Shown in pieces: positions 1-37,512 of a stretch of DNA of 64,000 nucleotides. This DNA is from a virus, in IMG/VR virus record IMGVR_UViG_3300042907_001518, positions 1 through 64,000 of that record. The stretch is one strand, 5' to 3'. Numbering within the stretch: position 1 is the first letter of the stretch; every line of letters begins with the position of its first letter. Under the pieces are notes generated by a model. The model did not search any database and was not told the DNA's origin. It saw only the letters and a program-made list of their open reading frames with translations. The position numbers and the translations under genes are program-made.

Positions 1-104
1 AGGAAGCCATCAAGAGAAAATTACCATTCATAGATTATGCTGGTAAGATGTTGATTAAACGAGCTATAAAAAACGCAAGAAACAAGATAAACAAAAAGTC
101 ATGA
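1..104 (+). CDS. 3' end of an upstream gene (partial)
   Basis: An open frame enters from the left edge and stops at TGA 102-104, overlapping the ATG of the next gene at 101. The visible 33 residues are basic and end in KINKKS. The product cannot be named. The ATG/TGA overlap indicates that the glycosyltransferase operon extends upstream of this window. Confidence 0.6.
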   Translation, partial: EAIKRKLPFIDYAGKMLIKRAIKNARNKINKKS

Positions 105-1744
105 GCAATCATTCAGATATTTGTTTTGTTACTGGTATTTGGGATCTAAATCGTGGTTCTTCTGAACCTGGGTGGCAAAGATCCTTCGATCATTATATTA
201 ATCATTTTATACAACTATTAAAAGATTTACACTCTCACAATTTGATCATTTTTATAGATCCTAGTCTTGAAGATATGATATGGAAATATAGAGATCCTAA
301 AAATACCAAAGTATACTATCATACCAAAAATGACTTCTCAGGAAGTTTTTTCCCATTTTTTGACCAAGTTCAAAATATAAGAAACAATCCAGAGTGGTAC
401 AATCAAGCCGGATGGTTAAAGGATAGCACACAAGGCAGTCTAGAATATTATAATCCTATGGTTATGAGTAAAATGTTCTTGCTCAATAATGCTAGATTAT
501 TTAATCCATTCAATAGTGATTACTATTATTGGATTGATGGTGGTATTACCAACACTCTTAGTCTAGGTTATTTCAATAATTCTGTTGTAATAAATAATTT
601 AATTAACTTATCTAAAAAGTTTCTATTTATTTGTTTTCCATATGAAACCAATTCTGAGATTCATGGTTTTAATATAGAGGCAATGAAAAAATTTAGCAAT
701 AGCGACACCGTGAATAGGGTGGCTCGCGGAGGATTTTTCGGAGGACACAAAAACTATATTCATCAAGCAAACGGATCGTACTACCAATTATTGCATAATT
801 CTCTACATGAAGGTTTTATGGGGACCGAAGAGAGTATTTTTACAATAATGACATATTTACAACCAGAAACGTACCACCACGAAATGATAAATGGTGACGG
901 ATTAGTATATACGTTTTTTGAAAAATTACAGGAAAAAGCTTATATAGCAAATAATTCTAAAGGAGTTAATCTATATATAAATACTTTTCAGTCTCCGTCT
1001 CAGTTGCAGATGTTATTAGACTCATTCGAAAAATATGAATCATCATTACTACAAAATACAAATAAAATTTTAATAAATAATACCCCCGACACCGATAAAA
1101 ATACAGAACTATTTAAACACTATGACAATATTTGTGCAAAATACCAATTCACGCAAATAAAAAATGGAAACATGGGTATTTGTGGATCTAGACAATGGTG
1201 TGCTGAACACTTTCAAGACTCAGATGCTGAATATATGTTATTTTTTGAAGATGATATGTTATTAGATTTTAATGGTAATTGTCCGTTTGGTTTTAATAAG
1301 AATGTCGAAAATTTATTAGAAACCATTATTGAGATAATGAATAAAGAGAAATATGATTTTCTAAAATTAAGCTTTAGCGAATTCTATGGACACAATGGAG
1401 ATCAGTGGAGTTGGCATAATGTTCCACAGAATCAAAAGATACAATATTTTGGTGAATTAGTTAATAGGCCGCCTACAAAATTCAATAATATCAAATCTTT
1501 AAACAACACACCATATGCCGATGGTGAGATTTACTATAGTAACTGGCCACATATTATAAGCAAAGAAGGCAACAAACGTTGCTTCTTGGATACAAAATGG
1601 GCTCATCCTTTTGAGCAAACTTGGATGAGTCATTTATATACTTTGGCACATAATAGTATTATTAGACCAGCAATACTTTTAGCTAGTCCTATAACACATA
1701 ATCGTGAACATCACTACCTTGCATCAGAAAGAAAAGAAAACTAA
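101..1744 (+). CDS. Two-domain glycosyltransferase (HtrL/YibB-like plus GT-A domain)
   Basis: 547 residues. Residues 1 to about 300 resemble the WlaTC/HtrL/YibB family of putative glycosyltransferases, including the stretch YNPMVMSKMFLLNNARLF followed by YYYWIDGGI. Residues from about 320 look like a separate GT-A fold domain, with the acidic metal-binding motif FFEDD near residue 381. The gene starts on the ATG that overlaps the upstream stop codon and is followed after 9 bases by another glycosyltransferase. It probably transfers sugars to a virion or host-surface acceptor; donor and acceptor are unknown. Two fused transferase domains would allow sequential additions. The family call is by eye; the GT-A call is the firmer part. 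Confidence 0.7.
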   Translation: MSNHSDICFVTGIWDLNRGSSEPGWQRSFDHYINHFIQLLKDLHSHNLIIFIDPSLEDMIWKYRDPKNTKVYYHTKNDFSGSFFPFFDQVQNIRNNPEWYNQAGWLKDSTQGSLEYYNPMVMSKMFLLNNARLFNPFNSDYYYWIDGGITNTLSLGYFNNSVVINNLINLSKKFLFICFPYETNSEIHGFNIEAMKKFSNSDTVNRVARGGFFGGHKNYIHQANGSYYQLLHNSLHEGFMGTEESIFTIMTYLQPETYHHEMINGDGLVYTFFEKLQEKAYIANNSKGVNLYINTFQSPSQLQMLLDSFEKYESSLLQNTNKILINNTPDTDKNTELFKHYDNICAKYQFTQIKNGNMGICGSRQWCAEHFQDSDAEYMLFFEDDMLLDFNGNCPFGFNKNVENLLETIIEIMNKEKYDFLKLSFSEFYGHNGDQWSWHNVPQNQKIQYFGELVNRPPTKFNNIKSLNNTPYADGEIYYSNWPHIISKEGNKRCFLDTKWAHPFEQTWMSHLYTLAHNSIIRPAILLASPITHNREHHYLASERKEN

Positions 1745-1753
1745 GGATAAATA

Positions 1754-3016
1754 ATGTCAGCAGAAAATACTATTTTTATTCAAATAGCCGCTTATAGAGA
1801 TCCGCAACTTTTACCAACCTTACGAGACGCTATAGATAAAGCAAAATTTCCAGAAAACTTAAGATTTGGTATATCGTGGCAGCATTGTGAAAATGATAGT
1901 TGGGATAATTTGGATAATTATAAGAATGATTCTAGATTTAAAATAATAGATATAGATTATCGAGATAGTAAAGGTGTCTGTTGGGCTAGAAATTTAGTAC
2001 AAAATCTTTATCAGGGAGAAGCTTACACTTTACAATTAGATAGTCATCATAGGTTTGTGGAAAACTGGGATACTACATTAATAGAAACTCTAACTAATCT
2101 GCAAAAAGAAGGATATCCAAAACCACTAATTACTGCTTATGTTCCTAGTTTTGATCCGGACAACGATCCAGAAAAACGAGTAATAGAACCATGGAAAATG
2201 ACCTTTGATAGATTTATTCCCGAAGGTGCTGTGTTCACATTACCAGCATCATATAATCCACAAATTGATGATGTTAGCAAACCATTACCAGCAAGATTTT
2301 ATAGTGCGCACTTTGCTTTTAGCGTAGGAGCATTTGCTAAAGAAGTACAACACGATCCAGAATACTATTTTCATGGAGAAGAAATTAATATTGCTGTTAG
2401 GGCTTTTACTCATGGATATGATTTATTTTATCCGAATACCATAGTATGCTGGCATGAATATACGAGAAAAGGACGAACTAAACAATGGGACGATGATAAA
2501 ACCTGGGGTCAAAAAAATACTCATTGTCATTCTAGAAATAGAAAATTATTTGGTATGGACGGAGAAATTAACGATATTGATTTTGGTAAATATGGATTTG
2601 GTAATACGAGAACGCTAAAACAATACGAAAAATACTCCGGATTATGTTTTAGCAACAGATGCATTACTCAGGATGTTATTGATCATATACCTCCTAAACT
2701 TTCTAATATGGAAATATCAGATGAGGAATTTGAATCAAAACTAATACCAATTTTTAAACATTGTATAGATATTGGCTATAATCAAGTAGAAGAAAATGAT
2801 TATGATTTTTGGTGTGTAGCATTCAAAGACCAAAACGGTAATGATATTTATAGACAAGATGCTGATGAGAACGAAATTGGAATCATGAAAAATGATCCCG
2901 ATGGATACTGCAAGATATGGCGAACATTTAGAACACAGATTCAACCACAAAGTTGGATAGTATGGCCCCATAGTAAATCAAAGGGCTGGGCAGATCCTAT
3001 AACTGGGAATATATGA
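1754..3016 (+). CDS. GlcNAc-transferase-like glycosyltransferase (PF11397/GT60 type)
   Basis: 420 residues. The N-terminus IFIQIAAYRDPQLLPTLRDA followed by FGISWQ is typical of the GlcNAc family (PF11397), which includes polypeptide and Skp1 alpha-GlcNAc transferases. The motif LQLDSHHRF near residue 95 supplies the D-x-H metal/nucleotide site. HGEEINIAVRAFTHGYDLFYP and a C-terminal WHEY box are also family-like. Characterised members put GlcNAc on Thr or hydroxyproline of proteins. This makes the Thr/Pro-rich tail proteins encoded convergently at 7158-10581 plausible acceptors (inference). A start SD-like AAGGATAA lies just upstream. Confidence 0.78.
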   Translation: MSAENTIFIQIAAYRDPQLLPTLRDAIDKAKFPENLRFGISWQHCENDSWDNLDNYKNDSRFKIIDIDYRDSKGVCWARNLVQNLYQGEAYTLQLDSHHRFVENWDTTLIETLTNLQKEGYPKPLITAYVPSFDPDNDPEKRVIEPWKMTFDRFIPEGAVFTLPASYNPQIDDVSKPLPARFYSAHFAFSVGAFAKEVQHDPEYYFHGEEINIAVRAFTHGYDLFYPNTIVCWHEYTRKGRTKQWDDDKTWGQKNTHCHSRNRKLFGMDGEINDIDFGKYGFGNTRTLKQYEKYSGLCFSNRCITQDVIDHIPPKLSNMEISDEEFESKLIPIFKHCIDIGYNQVEENDYDFWCVAFKDQNGNDIYRQDADENEIGIMKNDPDGYCKIWRTFRTQIQPQSWIVWPHSKSKGWADPITGNI

Positions 3017-3017
3017 T

Positions 3018-3830
3018 ATGGCTATTATTATAGAGTATGATCAGGCAACAGGACTAGGTGATCAATATGCGAGTATATATAGTCTATATGGAGTATATCA
3101 AAAACTCAAACATAACACTAATTCTTCAATTATAGTATATTGTAATTCAAAAATAAGCCATTATTTTGGCAATAATATGCCAGGACTTGAATTTTATAGT
3201 AAAATTTTTGATTATTCTTTTTTAGATCAAATTTATTTCAATCAAAGTATTCCATCGTGTTTTGTACATAAAAAATATTGGCATAATAACTATTTTAGTT
3301 TCTATAGTGACAATAATATAGATGATCAATTGTTGAATAGTATTGATTTTGAATACATGGGACACACAACACTGTATAACAAAGATAATTCATATAATCC
3401 TCTAAATATTCAGCCGTTAATAAATAAAGATTTACTATATAATAATAATATTGTTGATCCATTTATAGTATTTCATTTGAGATTTCATGATTCATGGAAT
3501 GAAAATACAGACCCGGCTGAATTTTATAGAGTATATAAAAATATTCAATCTATAATAGAAACAAGATATTCTAAACATAGAATAGTAATAGGAGGTAGAA
3601 ATGGACTGGATCCAATATTAAAAAAAGTTGCATGTAAATATATCATTAAAACAGAGCAACACACCGATAATATCTATAACGATGTAATATCTTATGCTAA
3701 AGATATGGTTTTATACTCATATGCAGATAAAATTTTTGCATATTGTTATTGGCAAAGTAATTTTATAACATATTCTATATTGCATAATCAAAAGCAAAAA
3801 ACATATAAAAATTTAATAGAAAAAATATAA
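3018..3830 (+). CDS. Putative glycosyltransferase, unassigned family
   Basis: 270 residues, starting one base after the preceding stop. The opening GLGDQYASIYSLYGVYQKL resembles the glycine-rich N-terminal loop of GT-B enzymes that scan for nucleotide sugars. FIVFHLRFHDSW near residue 153 and VIGGRNGLDPI near residue 190 recall fucosyltransferase-like (GT23/O-FucT type) folds. No catalytic motif can be assigned with certainty. The position between two transferases supports a role in glycan synthesis. The gene is very AT-rich like its neighbours. Confidence 0.5.
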   Translation: MAIIIEYDQATGLGDQYASIYSLYGVYQKLKHNTNSSIIVYCNSKISHYFGNNMPGLEFYSKIFDYSFLDQIYFNQSIPSCFVHKKYWHNNYFSFYSDNNIDDQLLNSIDFEYMGHTTLYNKDNSYNPLNIQPLINKDLLYNNNIVDPFIVFHLRFHDSWNENTDPAEFYRVYKNIQSIIETRYSKHRIVIGGRNGLDPILKKVACKYIIKTEQHTDNIYNDVISYAKDMVLYSYADKIFAYCYWQSNFITYSILHNQKQKTYKNLIEKI

Positions 3831-3839
3831 AAGTTTTCA

Positions 3840-4547
3840 ATGAGCTACATATACTGCACAATAGCTATTGGTAAAAAATATCTAGATATAGCTATTGAAT
3901 TTGCTAAGGAATTAAATAATAAATCGAATACGCACAAAGTATTGATAGTAACTGATGAAGAATCACTCGATATCCCAAATACTTATTTCATACCATTTGA
4001 TAAAAATAATGTAACTTTTATACAAAATATATTTAACTATAATTTAAAATACATTCCGATGATGGAGTGTTCAAAATTATATTATAATTTTATTATCTTT
4101 ATTGATGCTGATTGGCGATTACATGAACTATATAAAGAAGAAAAAATATTAGAATTTTTAGATAAGTTTGATAAAAGCGAATATGATTTCATATTTGAAA
4201 GACCACATACTATTGGAGTCCATAAATATAATAAAGCCACCTGTTTTTGGAAACATAAAATAGAACCATACAAACTATTGCAAACAAGAAAATATGATGA
4301 TGCCCATGTTGTTAATGAACAATTCATGGTCTTTAAAAATAATGATAAATTTAAAATATTTTGTGATAGATGGAAAGAAAGAAATGATTTTGGTATTCAA
4401 AATAATATTTGGGCATTTGCCGAAGGGCTTGAAATAGGTATGTCTGCTATTGATGCTAATATGACAATGAATTGGCAACTTATGAGATCTTTGAAACAAT
4501 GTTTTAGATTTCAAAACAATACTGGAATATCTTTTGAAAGATTTTGA
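3840..4547 (+). CDS. GT-A fold glycosyltransferase (GT8-like)
   Basis: 235 residues. The sequence begins with a Rossmann-like strand (YIYCTIAIGKKYLDIAIEFA). It carries the D-x-D motif FIIFIDADWR near residue 85, expected to coordinate the metal and nucleotide sugar. HVVNEQFMVFKNNDKFKIF and a late WAFAEGLEIGMSA segment are typical of GT8/DUF-type transferases. It sits inside the glycosyltransferase operon, with the next gene starting 3 bases after its stop. Specificity is unknown. Confidence 0.68.
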   Translation: MSYIYCTIAIGKKYLDIAIEFAKELNNKSNTHKVLIVTDEESLDIPNTYFIPFDKNNVTFIQNIFNYNLKYIPMMECSKLYYNFIIFIDADWRLHELYKEEKILEFLDKFDKSEYDFIFERPHTIGVHKYNKATCFWKHKIEPYKLLQTRKYDDAHVVNEQFMVFKNNDKFKIFCDRWKERNDFGIQNNIWAFAEGLEIGMSAIDANMTMNWQLMRSLKQCFRFQNNTGISFERF

Positions 4548-4549
4548 TA

Positions 4550-5530
4550 ATGAAAATTTTAAATATACGTCATGCTTTTGCTGACCATGGAAAATACTAT
4601 CCAACAAGTTTTTTTCAAAAACTATATGATAGGCTATTAATAGAATATCCAGATTATGAATTTATAATTGATAATAGTCCTGATTATGAAAATCATGGAC
4701 AAGGATCTGTATATAGTTGTTTGAATTTTTCTATTATTAATCCAGATAATAAATATATACTAGTATCTTTTTTTGATAATTGGCGATATCATTTTATGAA
4801 ACATATGGGATGGCGACCAGAACTAATGACACAATTTCTATATCCAGGAGGTTTTAACTATGCTGAATATTTTTATTTCAAACATTTAGAAAGAGATAAT
4901 ACTGATATATTATGTCCGAGCAACATAAATAAAATTTATCAATCTTTTTACTATCCAACATATAATGTATCGGACGAAGCATATGTATCAGAACTATACG
5001 AATCTAGGAATATAAGAACAGCCATACCAGAACTATACTTTCATGGCTGCTTATGGGATTTTAGACAAACAATGATGGATGGATTAGATGATAGTTCTAT
5101 TTATGTTTCAGATAAACATGGAAGAAATTTAGATTATAACTTATACCTAAATTACATGAGCCACTATCGTTGCGCATTAAGTCTACCGGGCGGAACTGAA
5201 ATTTGTAATAGAGATATAGAGTGTTTTAGTATAGGCGTACCAATCATAAGACCAACGTTGTCTATTAATTTTGAGGATCCATTAATTCCTAACTATCATT
5301 ATATTAGTTGCTATGATAATTGTAAATATTGGGATGGATACCCCTCCTACCTATCATATAAAGACTTTCAAGAATCTTTGAAAGACTGCTGGAGCAGAGT
5401 AAAGAATAACATTGAGTATCTTGAATTTGTAGCTAATAATGCTAGGCGGTGGTATCTAAGAAATTGCACAATAGATAATAATATCAAATATATAATGTCT
5501 AAAATAGATCTGGAGACTTTAAATGGTTAA
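4550..5530 (+). CDS. Exostosin/GT-B-like glycosyltransferase
   Basis: 326 residues from ATG 4550; an in-frame TTG at 4544 is a weaker alternative. The C-terminal half contains YRCALSLPGGTEICNRDIEC followed by FSIGVPIIRPTL. This acidic nucleotide-sugar-binding loop resembles those of exostosin-type GT-B enzymes. The N-terminal half is an unassigned partner domain rich in Tyr and Asn. The stop overlaps the next start by 8 bases, implying translational coupling. Substrate unknown. Confidence 0.6.
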   Translation: MKILNIRHAFADHGKYYPTSFFQKLYDRLLIEYPDYEFIIDNSPDYENHGQGSVYSCLNFSIINPDNKYILVSFFDNWRYHFMKHMGWRPELMTQFLYPGGFNYAEYFYFKHLERDNTDILCPSNINKIYQSFYYPTYNVSDEAYVSELYESRNIRTAIPELYFHGCLWDFRQTMMDGLDDSSIYVSDKHGRNLDYNLYLNYMSHYRCALSLPGGTEICNRDIECFSIGVPIIRPTLSINFEDPLIPNYHYISCYDNCKYWDGYPSYLSYKDFQESLKDCWSRVKNNIEYLEFVANNARRWYLRNCTIDNNIKYIMSKIDLETLNG

Positions 5531-6134
5531 CGGTGGTTTTGCATATGGATACTTATTTATAAGTCAACATCCCGACGCCCAAAAAATTTTCACAGATTTA
5601 TTTGATGTGGTAAGGCCATCCAGAATATTGGAAATTGGTACGTTTCATGGTGGTCTAACATTGATGCTCAGAGACTGTTTAGACAATATGGGCTTATCCG
5701 GCTCGGTCATTAGAACGTACGATATTTTGGAACAAGAATTTTTAAAACCATTAGTTAAAGGTAGGTTGGTGGAAGTCTATAAAAAAAATCTATTTGATGA
5801 TAGTTATACTGGTTTTATAAACGAAGAGGCTGAGAATGAAGTAAAATCTTTTATTCAGCAAGATGGGGTGACGGTGGTTCTATGTGATGGAGGATGTAAA
5901 AAGTGCGAATATGGCCTATTAGCACCGCTGCTCAAAAATCAAGATATTATTATGGCCCATGATTATTGTCCAAATAAAGACTACTTTAATGAATATATGA
6001 AAGATAAAATATGGGACTGGTGTGAAATTGAAGATAAAGATATCGATATTATTAGTAAAGACTATAATCTAGTTTCTTTTCATCAAGACAAATTATTATC
6101 CATAGCCTGGAATTGCAGAATTAAAAATGATTAA
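5523..6134 (+). CDS. Class I SAM-dependent methyltransferase
   Basis: 203 residues. The SAM-binding motif I is RILEIGTFHGGLTLML near residue 37, followed by the acidic strand end VIRTYDIL (motif II) and VVLCDGGCKK (motif IV region). It resembles small class I methyltransferases and cephalosporin-hydroxylase-type proteins found in polysaccharide clusters. It overlaps both neighbours by 8 bases, so it probably modifies a sugar made by the surrounding glycosyltransferases. The methyl acceptor is not deducible. Confidence 0.7.
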   Translation: MVNGGFAYGYLFISQHPDAQKIFTDLFDVVRPSRILEIGTFHGGLTLMLRDCLDNMGLSGSVIRTYDILEQEFLKPLVKGRLVEVYKKNLFDDSYTGFINEEAENEVKSFIQQDGVTVVLCDGGCKKCEYGLLAPLLKNQDIIMAHDYCPNKDYFNEYMKDKIWDWCEIEDKDIDIISKDYNLVSFHQDKLLSIAWNCRIKND

Positions 6135-7149
6135 AGAACTATGTGTGGTTGGCCATCCATCTAAATTAGGTGGCGCAGACACAGAGCTGGAGCATCAGAT
6201 AAGGCTTTGGAGAGAGATGGGTGTGGATGTATATCTTTGTCACACCTCTGGATTTGATAATCGGGCCAATACAATGAAAGAACAAATGCTTTCTATTGGA
6301 TGTAAATATATTCCATCAAAATCATGGAAAGATCTAAAAGATTTTCATGTTATATCTTTTTGTAATGGTCAATTTTTAGCTAATATAGAAGAAATAAAAA
6401 AATATGCAAAATCAACCACGTTTGTTAACTGCATGACTTGGAATTTTGAAAAAGAACTTAAAGCACACGAAAATGGATTGATAGACTTTTTCTTATATCA
6501 AACACAACATCAGTTCGATAAAGGTAGTATTAAATTAAAAACAATATCATCAACATATAATCCATTGTTTTTTAATCCATATTTTGATAATAGTGATTTT
6601 CCCTTTATAGAAAGAAAAAATAATGATTTCTTTAGATTTGGAAGAATATCTAGGGGAGATGCTGACAAATACAATAAACACCAGATATGGATTTGGGAAA
6701 CAATGACAGCGCCAGTATTAAAAAGCGGTATTGTACTAGGATGGGATCATAGAGCAATGTGTAAGCTCGGAGGATTACCTTCTTATGTGAAAGGATATGA
6801 AGAAGGAGCGATTACTCAACAAGAATTCTATAAAGAATGTGATGTTATTATTATGAGCACAGATACTTATGAGAATTTACCTAGAGTGGGTTTTGAAGCA
6901 ATGAGTTCAGGATCGTTATTAGTTGTTGATGATAAAGGCGGATGGAAAGTTTTAGTAGAAAATGGAAAAACAGGATGGCTATGTAAAGATAATAGGGAAT
7001 TTATTTATAAAGCATCTAGATCAGCATTTGAGATCGAAGAAACCCATAATATGAGAATATCTGCTAGAGAAAAATTATTAAATGAATGGGGTAAAGAAAG
7101 CAGTATGAAATCATGGCAAAATATTTTTGATAAGTGGTCAAATATTTAA
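6127..7149 (+). CDS. GT4-family glycosyltransferase (GT-B)
   Basis: 340 residues. The N-terminal VVGHPSKLGGADTELEHQI matches the acceptor-domain glycine loop of GT4 enzymes. The C-terminal YENLPRVGFEAMSSGSLLVV contains the E-x7-E-like donor-binding motif, followed by VENGKTGWLC. It is the last gene of the plus-strand operon and runs up to the convergent late operon with only 8 bases between the stop codons. No clear hairpin separates the two. Confidence 0.8.
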   Translation: MIKELCVVGHPSKLGGADTELEHQIRLWREMGVDVYLCHTSGFDNRANTMKEQMLSIGCKYIPSKSWKDLKDFHVISFCNGQFLANIEEIKKYAKSTTFVNCMTWNFEKELKAHENGLIDFFLYQTQHQFDKGSIKLKTISSTYNPLFFNPYFDNSDFPFIERKNNDFFRFGRISRGDADKYNKHQIWIWETMTAPVLKSGIVLGWDHRAMCKLGGLPSYVKGYEEGAITQQEFYKECDVIIMSTDTYENLPRVGFEAMSSGSLLVVDDKGGWKVLVENGKTGWLCKDNREFIYKASRSAFEIEETHNMRISAREKLLNEWGKESSMKSWQNIFDKWSNI

Positions 7150-7157
7150 TATCTAAA

Positions 7158-7847
7158 CTATGGACACTTAGAATTTGTTGGAGTAACAGTTGGTGTCCTA
7201 GTTGGACTGATGGCCGGCGTGCCTGTTAAAGAAGGAGAGGGTGTTTTAGTTGGTGTTGGTAATGGTGTTTTAGTTGCGGTTGGTGTTATTGCTGCTGTAG
7301 CTGGTGGCGTTTTAGTGGGTGTTTGAGATACTCCCGGAGTTGATGCGGCTGTTTTAGTTGGTGTGCGTGTTGTAGTATGTGTGGGAGTTCTTGTCGGAGT
7401 TTTGGTTGGGGTTGTAGTGTTTGTTGGTGTTGGGGTCGGGCCGCTAGTTGCTGTTAAACTAACAGTTGCTCCTGGGGTTGCGGTTGGTGTTTTTGTTGGA
7501 GTTTTAGTTGGTGTTGCTGTTGGCGTTGGTGTAGGACTTGATCCAATGCTCTTACTAGGAGTAATACTAGGAGTAGGCGTAAGGCTTGATGATGCTGCCG
7601 GTGTTGATGTGTTAGATGGTGAAACGCCAGGAGTGTTTACTGGTGTTTCTGAAACAACATATGGCGTTGTCCAATTACTACAAGACGGACAAGACTGAGT
7701 AATCGCTGGCGTAGCTGTGGGCGTTGGTGATGGGGCCGGAGAAGCTGTTAATGATGGCGTGACTGTTCTAGTAACGCTAACAGTGGGCTCTGGTGTTTTT
7801 GTTGCGGTTTTTGTTAGCGTTGGTGTTGGGGATAGACATATACTCAT
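7158..7847 (-). CDS. Thr/Pro-rich mucin-like tail protein
   Basis: 229 residues starting at ATG 7847, preceded by GGAG; an in-frame TTG at 7862 is less likely. Almost the whole protein is a low-complexity array of [10 protein letters not shown] and SPTPT units. One short non-repetitive island includes [13 protein letters not shown] near residue 75. Such extended Thr/Pro segments behave as rigid stalks and are classic O-glycosylation acceptors. It overlaps the end of the 910-residue tip protein, which has the same tracts. It is probably a fibre or stalk at the tail tip; function is inferred. Confidence 0.7.
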
Positions 7848-7848
7848 A

Positions 7849-10581
7849 TTACATTTCTCCAATTCCTAATTTTTCCATCTTAATAGCTATTGCTGGCGCG
7901 GAACAATCCACTGGTAGGTTAAGTTTATTTCTTACAGAAATCATAGAGCCTTTACGAATACCTTCTTCACAATAGTCTATACCAGCAGCATACTCTACTA
8001 GTATTATACCTTCAGTACTATCAATACGACTATAGGTACCGTATACTGTTGGAGTAATTGGCTCCGGATGTCTTTGTAATACAATATATTTTTCTGTTGA
8101 TGTATCAAAATATGCATATACTAATTCACCAATTTTATGTGTTTTTCCTAATCTGTCCACAATATTAATCATCACAGCAGCTTCACGTTCCGGTTCATCT
8201 CCACTAGATGACGAAGATGGGCTTGGTGATGGTGTTGGGGTTGGTGTTGCTGTGGGTGTTGGGGTTGTGGTCGATGTTGGAGTTGGTGTTAGTGTGGGCG
8301 TGCTGGTTTGTGTGGCGGTGGGGGTTGGAGTAGGAGTACTAGTTTCTGTTGGTGTTGGAGTTGGTTCGCTGGATGAGCTACTATCACACGTAGTGGTACC
8401 TATGGTAATACTTCCAGTACTAACTACTCCTAAAATTTTAATAACAGCTGTAGTAAATACGAGACCACCACTTCCAAGGGTCACTCCTGTAATTACTGTT
8501 GTTGTTTGAGGCGCGCTGGGAGAAGGCGCTGGAGTATTAGTTGGTGTGGGAGTTGGAGTGGGCGTTACTGAGCAAGGACATTCTACTTCGCTATCAAATG
8601 GTCCACTAACAATATTGTCAACACCACAAAATAATGGATCATCAGATCTTCTACATATAAACTGAGGGTTGCCAAGTTCATCTGTTCCATCGGTACAACA
8701 ATACCATTTAATATTCTCTTCGGCATCACATGGTCCTATATTAACTAATATCCATTCATATTCTTTTTTACTAATTCCATCACCACAAGCCTTATCATCT
8801 CCATATTGTGCATTAACTTTAGAACCTTCTTTATCAAATAGTTGTTTACCATATGGTATGATAACGCCTTTACCTTCACTATAACAGTGAACAGTATCTG
8901 TAATTTTAGCAACAACAATTTTATAGGATTGTGGACTTACCCATAAGCCTCTATCTCTATCAAAACGTAAATCAATAGGAGCTGCTGGCCAAGTTGATGG
9001 TTTCTTTAACCAGTCTTGTAAAAATTCATCTTTTAGGTATGTATTCTTAAAAGTTCCTTGTTTTGCAGCTTCTTCTGCATCTGAAGCATTTGGTACTGGT
9101 TTTCCATCTAAGTCATAACCCCAACTATGTAGTACTATTGGTCCTCTCATTGCGATAAAACGATAGTCATCAGCATACTTATCGTTATCGTCTGGTCTAT
9201 ACATATTAATAATGATACCACTATTAGGAACCTGATCGCCTCTACCAAGAATATCTATTGCGTGACCAGCACCTGGACCCTTATGATGATGTTCATCAGA
9301 ACTAAAATTATTAGTTAGTGGATTATTATATTCCTGAGTAATTTCTAAATTATATTGTTCATGTATTAAATCTTTAGCACTACAATCTCCACTGACAGAA
9401 AATGGAGGCTGTGGAGAAATCGGGGATGATTTGTGTCCCTGTGGATTAAAAGTAGCATATCTAGGTAGTCCACCATCCCCCTTTAAAGATACTGGGCCGA
9501 TCAAACCATCCCAACTCATATAAGCCTTTTTATCATACTCATATGTCATTTCATTAACACTTTTACTCAAAGTGTTCGTTCCAACAACTGTTCTTTGACT
9601 CTGGTTATCCTGTGACCCATCCCAATCGTACATTTCAGCCACTAAAACGCGTTGTAATGAAGCTTCTCTATTAGTGCCAGGTAATTTATTTTCTATTACG
9701 GATTGTCTTTTTGCATTTTGTATTTTACGGCCAATCTTATTTTGAACAATTTGAGCAGATCGTAGGAATTTAAGTTGTTCTTGTCTGTTTTTGGCTATAT
9801 CTTTAAATTTATCAATAAAATGTCTATTTAAACTACCAAACTTAGGAGTATATGTTTTGAATTCATAACTAGTTGTTACTCCACCAGAACCAAAGGTAAA
9901 ATTAATATTAGTAAGATTAGGACCACCAGCACCGGCCGTTGCTCCTAGACTAGCCAAGTCTGGTAAACCAGGTATTGTAACACCACCAGTTTCTGCTCTA
10001 GTTAAACCTATAGCAGATGATTCTACAATAGATGATCCGGCAGAGTTCATTGCTGCTGTGGATCCAAAAACCCAAGGACATAAATCAGCATCTACTGCTA
10101 CAGATGTGCCACCGGAACTATTTCCAAAATTTGATGATGCGTATGGTCCATACATTTTAACATTGCTACGCATTGGCACCATAGCGGCAGATGGCATGAC
10201 CGCCGCAGGCTGATATCCCATTTGATTCATGCTATGAGAATCAACAGCATTTTGAACCTTTTGTAACCACTCTACATCTGCTCCGCACACAGTTTGTGGC
10301 TGAAAATTTCTAGCATTATCTTCATCAACATTATTACCATTAGGGTCTTGAGGTTTTAATCCGGTAGTAGTAAATAACAAAGATCTAATTAGATTTTTAT
10401 AGTCCTCACAAACCGTTTGAGAACACATATCACTAAACTTAATAACTATATTTGGTTCATTACGCCATATATAAATTTTTTCATCTACTTCGGCTTTAAT
10501 CCAAGTAAGATTACCAGCGGCCACAATCTCTTCATCAGATAGTTTAGAGATATCTAATTTTCCACAGTTAATACCGGCCAT
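7849..10581 (-). CDS. Large tail-tip/baseplate-region protein with Thr/Pro stalks
   Basis: 910 residues. Residues 1-660 look globular and are unassigned; they include a Gly/Ala-rich region near 130-230 and a charged helix near 260-310. Two Thr/Pro/Ser tracts follow: [20 protein letters not shown] near 675, and a longer one near 745-805. A compact C-terminal domain of about 100 residues ends the protein. The gene lies downstream of the probable hub protein and upstream of the pure Thr/Pro protein. A structural protein of the distal tail or its fibres fits best. Confidence 0.62.
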
Positions 10582-28168: not shown

Positions 28169-28834
28169 TTAGGTTTGGCTTGGCGTTGGTGTGGGAGTTC
28201 TTGTTGGAGTAAAACTAATAGATGGTGTTAGTGATACTGTTCTGGTTAGTGTTGGGGTTCTCGTTAGGGTTGGAGTTATGCTTGGAGTCACACTAATAGT
28301 AGGAGTTGGTGGAGGACTATACAAACCAGTTTTTTTCCACATAGCAATTAAATATTTATTATCACCCAAACCTACTGGATTGGGTTCTCCGTATAGTTGA
28401 AACACAGGATTAGCATTACTAGTATGATAAATAACTGTCATATCTTTGCATCGTCGTATCTGCGATAGATAATCTTTACTACATATGGTTTGAATATATC
28501 CATCTGGATTGTCTAACTGTGGCGGTGGATTAATCCATTTTTTATAATCCCAGATAATTGCTAAATATCCGTTGTCTGTTTGAGATCTGCCAGTTGATCC
28601 AGACCCATTGCAATATGGACAAATTTTACCTAAAGTAAATGCGACAGGACCACCACTTTTATATTTACCAGAAGATTTTTTCAGATTAACATCATATATA
28701 CAATTAGGACATAATTCAATATTAGTAATTCCATAGTTAAAAACACATTCTGTTGTTAGTCCAGTGGAAGCTAACAATAAATTTATTTGATTATTAAATA
28801 TACTTTGTAAATTAGAAAAATCCGGATAGGCCAT
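28169..28834 (-). CDS. Zinc-ribbon protein with C-terminal Thr/Pro tail
   Basis: 221 residues. Two CxxC knuckles, CPNC near residue 38 and CPYC near residue 72, suggest a zinc ribbon. The last 50 residues are a Thr/Pro/Ser tract (TPTISVTPSITPTLTRTP and more), compositionally the same as the tip-protein stalks. A zinc-ribbon connector with a mucin-like tail is unusual; the tail may be exposed at the virion neck. Role inferred from position. Confidence 0.55.
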   Translation of the reverse strand: MAYPDFSNLQSIFNNQINLLLASTGLTTECVFNYGITNIELCPNCIYDVNLKKSSGKYKSGGPVAFTLGKICPYCNGSGSTGRSQTDNGYLAIIWDYKKWINPPPQLDNPDGYIQTICSKDYLSQIRRCKDMTVIYHTSNANPVFQLYGEPNPVGLGDNKYLIAMWKKTGLYSPPPTPTISVTPSITPTLTRTPTLTRTVSLTPSISFTPTRTPTPTPSQT

Positions 28835-35280: not shown

Positions 35281-37512
35281 TTATACAATAATCCAGTTTG
35301 ACCCATCGCTAATTACACTAATACTTATATACTGTCTATTAAGACCAATATCAGAATATCCATCGATTGTTTGGCCAACAGAGGTTTGTAAATACACTGT
35401 GCCAGTTGTATTGTTTTTAAGCGTAAATATGCCTTTGTTGTTAACTGCGGTTGGTAGAATTAGAGCATAATTAGTGGCCAAATCACTAAAAATATAAACG
35501 TATTCTCTAGCAGATGATCCTGTGGCAGAAATATTGCTATTATTAACATGGACAATGACTGATTTTTCCAAACTTACAGGAATATTATTAACTTCTAAAT
35601 TAGTAAAATTACCACTAGCGGCACTTAGCAATCCGCTACTAATAGTTAATCCATTAGTGAAAGTATGATTAGCCTCGACTGTTCTTGAGGTATTTATATG
35701 AAGATATTGATTATGATCATCATCTCCAAGACCGAATAATAATCCATGATCATTCTGAGTAACACCCTGGTTTCCTTGGGTACCTTGTATACCATTAGAT
35801 CCTTGGGTGCCAGTATTGCCCTGTATACCTTGAATACCTTGGATTCCCTGAGCGCCTTGATCGGCAAGTAATGTCCAAAAAGTTCCTTCTGTTGGAGTAT
35901 CACCAGTATTACCACCATTGGAATTAATACGATACCATGTCTTACCATCGTATGTAGCAACGTCTCCAACAGCGTAAGAAGCTCCTATATTATAGGCTCC
36001 GGTAAAATTCCAAAGGGCGGCAGTACCTTGTACTCCTTGAGTGCCTTGAGATCCAGTGATGCCTTGGATACCTTGTGAGCCTTCAGTTCCTTGTACGCCA
36101 GTCGGTGCTGCAGTAAGAATAAACAACATTTGATGATTATTAGGAAAAGAGAATGTTGATGTAACTAAACTAATTCCATAAGTCCAATATGTAGTATTAT
36201 CAGTCTTACTAGTAATTGTCCATTCTTGATAATTTGTATGTACATCTTTATCTTGTAGAGTTATAACACTTCCAACATTAACATTTGATAAAAATCGGTC
36301 TAAGTTATCTCCATTTTGATCTAATTCACTTACACTAATAGATGTTGCAGACACTTGTGTTGCATTGTTCCATATAATATGACCTGATCCTGGATTTCCA
36401 TTTGTTATATTAGTTTTTGCTTGATAGTTAAAAAATGCATTAGAAGTTCCTGCAGTCCCTTGAGTTCCTATTGCTCCTTGTACTCCTTGAGCACCTTGTG
36501 ACCCAGCGATGCCTTGTTGCCCTTGAGTACCTTGTGATCCAGTAACTCCCTGTTGTCCTTGAGTGCCTTGAGATCCAACACTTCCCTGACTTCCCACAGA
36601 TCCCTGAGAACCAGTAGCACCTTGGATTCCCTGAGTACCCTGATTGCCTACACTACCTTGGGTTCCTTGACTTCCTTGACTTCCAATTGTTCCTTGAGTA
36701 CCTTGACTACCAACCAATCCCTGTGATCCTATAGAACCCTGACTACCAGTGCTTCCTTGAGATCCTATTGTACCCTGTGAACCTTGAGAACCAACACTTC
36801 CCTGACTACCAGCATTTCCTTGAGAACCAGTTAAGCCTTGACTTCCAACTATACCTTGTGTACCATTGCTTCCTTGACTTCCTGTGGCACCTTGTGTTCC
36901 TTGACTTCCTTGGTTACCTACTGATCCCTGTGATCCGATAGTTCCTTGTGTTCCCTGATTTCCGCTAGTACCCTGTGAGCCAGTCGCTCCTTGACTACCA
37001 ATAAAACCTTGTGTTCCTTGGTTTCCAATCATACCTTGTGTGCCGCTACTGCCTTGACTTCCTATGGCTCCTTGACTACCATTGTTTCCGGTATTGCCTT
37101 GAGTTCCTTGTAATCCTATTAACCCTTGACTACCCGTATTACCTTGTGAGCCAGTCAATCCTTGACTTCCGATACCTCCTTGAATACCCTGATTGCCAAG
37201 ATTACCTTGAACGCCCTGAATTCCATTTATTCCTTGAGATCCAATATTTCCTTGAATTCCTTGAATACCCTGCATACCAAGTGGACCTTGAATACCAGTA
37301 GTTCCTTGAATACTATCAGTAATAGTAATATCAGTAGCACCTATTTGTTCAACAACTATAGCTATTGTGCTATCTGCGGTATTTGTTTGTATATCCAGAG
37401 ATGTGGTTTGATCTGTAGATAAATTAGGAGTATTATCTGTTAAAATAAAACCATTAGTAGAAATTTCAATATTATTTTCTGGAATAATATCGACAGTAAC
37501 ATTAAAGTCCAT
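35281..37512 (-). CDS. Collagen-like fibre protein
   Basis: 743 residues. Residues about 75-360 are uninterrupted G-x-Q/G-x-x triplets (GSQGTQGSQG, GIQGNQG and similar), with two shorter collagen blocks near 470-490 and 555-590. Non-collagen beta domains lie between and after them. The C-terminal 130 residues probably form the trimerising head. Position 2 or 3 is dominated by Gln and Thr rather than Pro, as in phage collagen-like fibres. It is probably a trimeric head or tail fibre and a potential glycosylation target through its many Thr and Ser residues. Confidence 0.82.
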   Translation of the reverse strand: MDFNVTVDIIPENNIEISTNGFILTDNTPNLSTDQTTSLDIQTNTADSTIAIVVEQIGATDITITDSIQGTTGIQGPLGMQGIQGIQGNIGSQGINGIQGVQGNLGNQGIQGGIGSQGLTGSQGNTGSQGLIGLQGTQGNTGNNGSQGAIGSQGSSGTQGMIGNQGTQGFIGSQGATGSQGTSGNQGTQGTIGSQGSVGNQGSQGTQGATGSQGSNGTQGIVGSQGLTGSQGNAGSQGSVGSQGSQGTIGSQGSTGSQGSIGSQGLVGSQGTQGTIGSQGSQGTQGSVGNQGTQGIQGATGSQGSVGSQGSVGSQGTQGQQGVTGSQGTQGQQGIAGSQGAQGVQGAIGTQGTAGTSNAFFNYQAKTNITNGNPGSGHIIWNNATQVSATSISVSELDQNGDNLDRFLSNVNVGSVITLQDKDVHTNYQEWTITSKTDNTTYWTYGISLVTSTFSFPNNHQMLFILTAAPTGVQGTEGSQGIQGITGSQGTQGVQGTAALWNFTGAYNIGASYAVGDVATYDGKTWYRINSNGGNTGDTPTEGTFWTLLADQGAQGIQGIQGIQGNTGTQGSNGIQGTQGNQGVTQNDHGLLFGLGDDDHNQYLHINTSRTVEANHTFTNGLTISSGLLSAASGNFTNLEVNNIPVSLEKSVIVHVNNSNISATGSSAREYVYIFSDLATNYALILPTAVNNKGIFTLKNNTTGTVYLQTSVGQTIDGYSDIGLNRQYISISVISDGSNWIIV

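Follow-up and report, generated by a model that had tools for sequence, protein, structure and literature searches.

A putative phage-encoded system for mucin-type O-glycosylation of virion stalks in a large group of uncultured phages

A large group of uncultured phages probably makes its own mucin-type, sugar-coated particle parts, because every large GT60+ genome examined also encodes long tracts rich in Thr, Pro, and Ser. The window analyzed here comprises bases 1–64,000 of an uncultured virus record 100,501 bases long, and we assign a probability of roughly two in three to the reading that it encodes a mucin-type O-glycosylation system for virion stalks, of which we infer the substrate, the sugar, the virion location, and the role. 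The view that the tracts are acceptors and a GT60-type enzyme the initiator is strongly supported by co-occurrence, by the modelled fold of the enzyme, and by the virion glycoproteins reported for phage XacN1. A first-pass annotation of this DNA had already proposed that the phage O-glycosylates its own tracts; this core held, and what found no support were its count of five glycosyltransferases, the roles that it gave to GH130- and FkbM-like genes, hydroxyproline as an alternative target, and the display of the tracts as stalks on the virion.

Tract proteins of the late operon

The late operon lies on the minus strand and runs from terminase (43272) through portal (41025), a head protein (38017, a weak match), and tape-measure (15731) to the tail genes, the last of which are 7849 and then 7158. 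A plus-strand operon at 101–7149 is convergent with it across a gap of eight bases, so the convergent arrangement that had been annotated is real. Viral contigs contain at least 580 relatives of the terminase, and a tblastn search of isolate phages with the 7849 protein returned no match; we therefore place the record in a large unsampled phage group. A large protein at L002:6381–9068 appeared rIIA-like by eye.

When every ORF of the 100.5-kb record was screened, the only clear Thr/Pro/Ser tract ORFs were the three minus-strand ones listed in the first-pass annotation (7158–7862, 7849–10581, and 28169–28834). Their best 50-residue windows are 70–90% Ser, Thr, and Pro, and each thus has the long, low-complexity, Thr/Ser/Pro-rich tract expected of a mucin-like domain.

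The main putative acceptor, and the proposed mucin-like stalk, is the 7158 protein, nearly all of which is (Thr/Ser-x)n. Its gene most likely starts at the ATG at 7847, because homologs begin MSIC or MTIC, which would give a protein of 229 aa (7158–7847, minus strand); homologs in most near relatives have 228–229 aa. Among homologs of 42–55% identity, Thr is kept at 68–82% of columns versus 28–42% expected from composition, Thr/Ser columns are retained far more often than composition predicts, and Thr and Ser are more conserved than Pro. Thr codons of the tract end in any of the four bases, at frequencies resembling those of other late genes; this variety points to selection on the protein and rules out fresh DNA-repeat expansion as the origin of the tract.

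The 910-aa 7849 protein (7849–10581, minus strand), encoded where the tail module ends, has a variable, hydroxyl-rich linker between a conserved N-terminal part of about 620 aa and a conserved C-terminal part of about 110 aa. It carries a short first Thr/Pro tract at aa 672–692 (8506–8568, minus strand) and a Thr/Pro/Ser tract at about aa 734–798 (8188–8382, minus strand). An AF2 model of the N-terminal domain reached a pLDDT of 42 and was discarded. The third tract protein (28169–28834, minus strand) consists of a conserved core (residues 1–170) and an optional C-terminal (Thr-x)n tail (28169–28318); it had been grouped with the tail proteins, and although its tract is real, gene order places it among the head-tail connector genes of the late operon and not at the tail tip. 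A second kind of hydroxyl-rich repeat protein is the collagen-like tail-fibre protein at 35281–37512 (minus strand), with 115 Gly-X-Y triplets in which X is mostly Ser or Thr, Y is mostly Gln, and Pro is almost absent; judged by this composition, it is possibly a further acceptor.

The tracts repeat with a strict period of two residues. Over the 229 residues of the 7158 protein, odd positions hold 70 of 73 Thr (binomial p about 1e-17) and even positions 45 of 48 Pro, with lags 2, 4, ... 12 all about twice expectation and odd lags about one fifth. All 18 Thr of the 28169 tail region share one parity. Across 65 non-redundant tracts (12,284 residues), a clear phase was found in 484 of 585 blocks, with 19 slips. 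Register positions in this set are 78% Thr and 14.5% Ser, and x positions are 38% Pro and 2.6% Thr, the last figure being biased down because blocks were chosen by phase; Thr is this scarce at x positions despite Pro to Thr being a one-base change. Tracts of 404 and 464 residues stay in phase throughout, and slip-free (Thr/Ser-x)n over 200–460 residues was seen at 7158–7847 of the window and at L015:12831–14504, L070:685–3093, and L050:7138–9930.

Mucin repeats require no such register, and an extended structure with a two-residue period, or an enzyme that steps along the chain, would explain it. We tentatively raise the possibility that the tracts are a distinct periodic polymer, an extended and possibly beta-like glycopeptide rod built with the GT60-type enzyme and having its hydroxyls or sugars in one register; the register would then be kept for 200–460 residues because these groups align in the rod. 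On this tentative reading, the phage would make a glycoprotein fibre for which the searched literature describes no equivalent.

The GT60-like enzyme and its operon

The plus-strand gene at 1754–3016 encodes a 420-aa protein with a DSHHRF motif that matches the Pfam family PF11397 ("GlcNAc," GT60-like) at 239.7 bits, against a cut-off of 21 (E 8.4e-71), confirming the GlcNAc-family glycosyltransferase that had been annotated in the convergent operon. The DSH-x-R-F residues (D96-S97-H98 and R100-F101), which include the metal/nucleotide-binding DxH motif, are invariant in 23 phage homologs, as are H207-G208-E209-E210. An AF2 model made from these homologs has a pLDDT of 90.6, and its 22 best PDB matches in Foldseek are polypeptide GalNAc-transferases (best E 2.9e-9, TM 0.43–0.53), indicating a GT-A fold akin to theirs. 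Polypeptide GalNAc-transferases start mucin O-glycosylation, and we propose that the 1754 enzyme is an initiating polypeptide O-HexNAc-transferase. The best viral matches of the protein are phage proteins annotated as "Glycosyltransferase, GlcNAc" and giant-virus enzymes; PDB sequence searches with the protein and its profile gave nothing useful. GT60 itself is the CAZy family to which the characterized enzymes of this type belong, and it includes the Thr alpha-GlcNAc-transferases of T. cruzi and Dictyostelium, which act on mucin domains (PMC8724618, PMC9472816).

The operon had been credited with at least five glycosyltransferases. Profile HMMs back three sugar-transferase-type genes (101, 1754, and 6127), and the higher count is not established because the products of 3018, 3840, and 4544 match nothing in Pfam, NCBIfam, or PHROGs. 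The first gene (101–1744, plus strand; E 8e-12) encodes an HtrL_YibB-family protein with an unassigned C-terminal half, and an HtrL-like gene of about 545 aa is the usual direct upstream neighbor of phage GT60 genes in many loci. A GT4-type (Glycos_transf_1) glycosyltransferase recognized by HMM is encoded at 6127–7149 (plus strand), and this gene is also present at 70% identity in the tract-less, GT60-less genome G011. The three family-less plus-strand genes encode candidate glycosyltransferases: 3018–3830; 3840–4547, in which a DxD-like FIDAD was noted by eye; and 4544–5530, which is conserved in the GT60+ genomes G002, G003, G005, and G008 (55–64% identity). By eye, a 3018-like part is fused to a 3840-like part in G003 (L199:17483–18691). 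The methyltransferase named in the first-pass annotation (5523–6134, plus strand) does match Methyltransf_24, below the curated cut-off, and its product may methylate a glycan. Neither the "FkbM-like" gene (29435) nor the "GH130-like" gene (30676) of the late operon found support in Pfam, NCBIfam, or PDB.

Co-occurrence of GT60-like genes and tracts

A search of viral contigs with the GT60 protein yielded 247 relatives, from which 80 loci were kept and collapsed at 90% identity to 48. A tract gene lies within 10 kb in 33 of these 48 loci and within ±5 kb in 32, versus 4 of 80 terminase loci (p 4e-14), a comparison that serves as a rough yardstick because the terminase loci were neither position-matched nor identity-collapsed. 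In 14 of the 48 loci the tract gene is the immediate same-strand neighbor, 38–216 bp upstream of GT60 (random expectation 7.6); these pairs, together with the convergence on the tail module in the window, link the glycosyltransferase gene to structural genes. The other 16 loci have no tract within 5 kb, and the checked contigs of at least 85 kb among them all carry tracts elsewhere. At L053:9035–9892, L057:8380–9894, L059:8082–9887, and L062:8199–9896, a Gly-Thr-Ser collagen-like repeat gene directly precedes GT60, replacing the Thr/Pro tract.

Among contigs of at least 85 kb, a TPTPT codon pattern detected tracts in 27 of 29 GT60+ contigs versus 6 of 16 GT60- contigs (p 1.2e-4). The two GT60+ contigs missed by the pattern (G052 and G063) prove to encode (Thr-x)n genes once translated, bringing the comparison to 29/29 versus 6/16 (p 2.5e-6), where the GT60- side rests on near-complete reading of the tract-less contigs G011, G013, and G020 and on the DNA pattern for the others. 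A strict tract filter missed tracts in G003, L009, L010, L018, and L021; with the relaxed filter and whole-contig reading that we used, no contig of at least 85 kb had GT60 without tracts. Within the 7849 gene family, every GT60+ locus carries tracts at this one convergent position, from which they are missing in most GT60- loci. The co-occurrence across relatives by which the first-pass annotation proposed to check its idea is thus found. In the reverse direction, starting from (TP)5 loci, GT60 was present in 9 of 31 contigs.

Most of the six tract-bearing GT60- contigs look like fragments of GT60+ lineages. G042, G045, and G050 (88–110 kb) resemble the longer GT60+ contigs G041, G046, and G043 (175–244 kb), and G019 (140 kb) breaks off within a tract gene and encodes the long fused tail protein seen in GT60+ relatives. 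G024 keeps a 45-codon N-terminal GT60 remnant (L292:9111–9248, equal to G024:39111–39248), and its loss of GT60 is apparently recent. The first-pass annotation had held that relatives with tracts and no glycosyltransferase would speak against it, and G038 (97 kb), with tracts and no GT60, may be such a case; the rest look incomplete or keep the remnant.

The same pairing recurs beyond this group. Among 50,697 isolate phage records, the PF11397 enzyme occurs only in XacN1, CM1, and RAS14 (48%). In XacN1, ORF334 is a relative of the 1754 enzyme (48% identity), an annotated carbamoyl transferase lies beside this GT60 gene, and the Thr/Pro tract ORF350 adjoins ORF351, annotated as a "structural protein"; in RAS14, a tract lies inside a protein of more than 1,900 residues. 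According to the paper that describes XacN1, its virions contain at least two glycoproteins, for which ORF328 and ORF334 are put forward as the makers (PMC5852040). In the cultured bacterium Jiulongibacter sediminis (L437:5957–9242), a tract gene is flanked by a 420-aa PF11397 relative. By eye, a second PF11397 relative also flanks it, followed by carbamoyltransferase- and FkbM-looking genes.

On a tree of 7849 homologs, GT60 undergoes three changes that the tract mirrors, providing two to three independent pairs. So few pairs remain below significance and lineage-corrected support is modest, and the case therefore rests on the pattern recurring in other phages and bacteria.

Proposed mechanism, alternatives, and significance

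In the proposed system, the GT60-like enzyme (1754–3016) would act in the host cytoplasm on the (Thr/Ser-x)n tracts in the 7158 stalk protein, the 7849 linker, and the 28169 tail, where Thr and Ser would receive their first HexNAc, probably alpha-GlcNAc. The HtrL_YibB-like and GT4 proteins, the methyltransferase, and possibly the products of 3018, 3840, and 4544 would lengthen or cap the sugar. Coated with glycans in this way, the tracts would form stiff and extended stalks or bristles on the particle, which may serve as spacers, as a hydration or anti-proteolysis coat, or in attachment. We count against glycosylation the location of the operon in the window on the strand opposite the late operon, the 16 GT60 loci with no tract within 5 kb, the few independent changes on the 7849 tree, and the tract-bearing, GT60-less contigs G019 and G038.

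The tracts could instead be bare extended spacers, with the glycosyltransferases acting elsewhere and the link a lineage effect, which we consider unlikely. This explanation draws on the 7849 linker site (8188–8382; same site in L199, L227, and L185), which is Thr/Pro in the window and G002, 46 or more Ser in G003, several Ser runs in G005, and about 10 Ser in G011, which lacks GT60. Hydroxyl-rich linkers of this sort are compatible with glycan acceptors and plain spacers alike, and the poly-Ser form in the GT60+ relatives G003 and G005 means that a spacer role may not need Thr. The few independent changes on the 7849 tree also favor bare spacers, as do other viral contigs that have Thr/Pro linkers without GT60. 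However, bare spacers fit poorly with the joint presence of GT60 and tracts in isolate jumbo phages and in cultured Jiulongibacter, with the frequent direct adjacency of tract genes and GT60, and with hydroxyl residues being strictly kept at every other position.

It is improbable that the operon alters lipopolysaccharide or capsule on the host surface, whether to prevent superinfection or to promote release. Glycosyltransferases of temperate phages do so (PMC12619734), and PHROGs files GT4 and PF11397 members under moron/host takeover, but the modelled PF11397 enzyme resembles polypeptide transferases, tract genes adjoin its gene, and no GtrA/GtrB-type match was found among the operon genes scanned.

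We give very little credence to a Skp1-like route, in which the enzyme would target hydroxyproline rather than Thr, the alternative carried by the first-pass annotation. GT60 also holds the hydroxyproline-specific Skp1 Gnt1 enzymes (PMC6939170), and Pro occupies 38% of the alternate x positions; on the other side, Thr/Ser is more conserved than Pro, and the prolyl hydroxylase partner of Skp1-type systems, searched for as the 2OG-Fe(II) oxygenase family PF13640, is absent from the record (G000) and from G002, G003, G005, and G008, with a sole weak match in the tract-less G011. The lack of a PF13640 prolyl hydroxylase disfavors this route, although a hydroxylase could come from the host or from another family. 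Least probable of all is hypermodification of phage DNA by the operon enzymes. Phage glycosyltransferases frequently have this role, and the HtrL-like protein matches an HMC glucosyltransferase profile, albeit very weakly (E 0.005); against it stand the predicted polypeptide-transferase fold of the key enzyme and the lack in seven genomes of an HMUDK-type 5-hydroxymethyl-dU kinase, which covers one pathway.

Returning to mucin-type glycosylation of the tracts, the phage enzyme has PF11397 and the DxH motif in common with the GT60 enzymes T. cruzi OGNT and Dictyostelium mucin-type and Skp1 Gnt1, and the acceptors of the T. cruzi and Dictyostelium enzymes are Thr/Pro-rich mucin domains like the phage tracts. 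By this analogy the phage system would likely work like eukaryotic mucin-type O-glycosylation, although, unlike the eukaryotic enzymes, the phage enzyme sits in an operon beside its putative acceptors and no prolyl hydroxylase of the PF13640 type was found. The Thr/Pro domain of T. cruzi gp72 is very similar to the phage tracts, but its glycans are phosphate-linked (PMC3630849). In mycobacteriophages, phage glycosyltransferases are thought to decorate structural proteins (Freeman et al., 2023, as cited in PMC12619734); as described there, the glycans are on C-termini of capsid and tail tube subunits, whereas here there are long dedicated Thr/Pro tracts and an initiating enzyme of a mucin-type family. 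In an unrelated genome (a 385-kb myovirus), XacN1 combines the same PF11397 enzyme with a Thr/Pro tract ORF that adjoins a structural gene, and the accessible text of its description credits ORF328 and ORF334 generally, with no mention of the tract protein or of which proteins are the glycoproteins (PMC5852040).

In the literature searched, a set outside which lie many subscription papers and all bioRxiv preprints, we found neither PF11397 nor Thr/Pro tract systems described for phages. In secreted cellulases and cellulosomes, stiff spacers are formed by Pro-Thr tracts that carry O-linked sugars; these linkers resemble the phage tracts but belong to cellular, secreted proteins and depend on different enzymes. 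Mucin-type O-glycosylation is usually regarded as a eukaryotic trait. If our reading is correct, it would also exist as a self-contained phage cassette of enzyme and acceptor, widespread in uncultured phages, and a function could be given to unannotated Thr/Pro tract proteins and PF11397 genes, which number in the hundreds. The two-residue Thr register is a structural puzzle in itself. Isolates such as XacN1 and RAS14 would allow virion glycosylation to be tested, and the phage enzymes would offer simple, bacterial-type catalysts for producing mucin-like glycopeptides.
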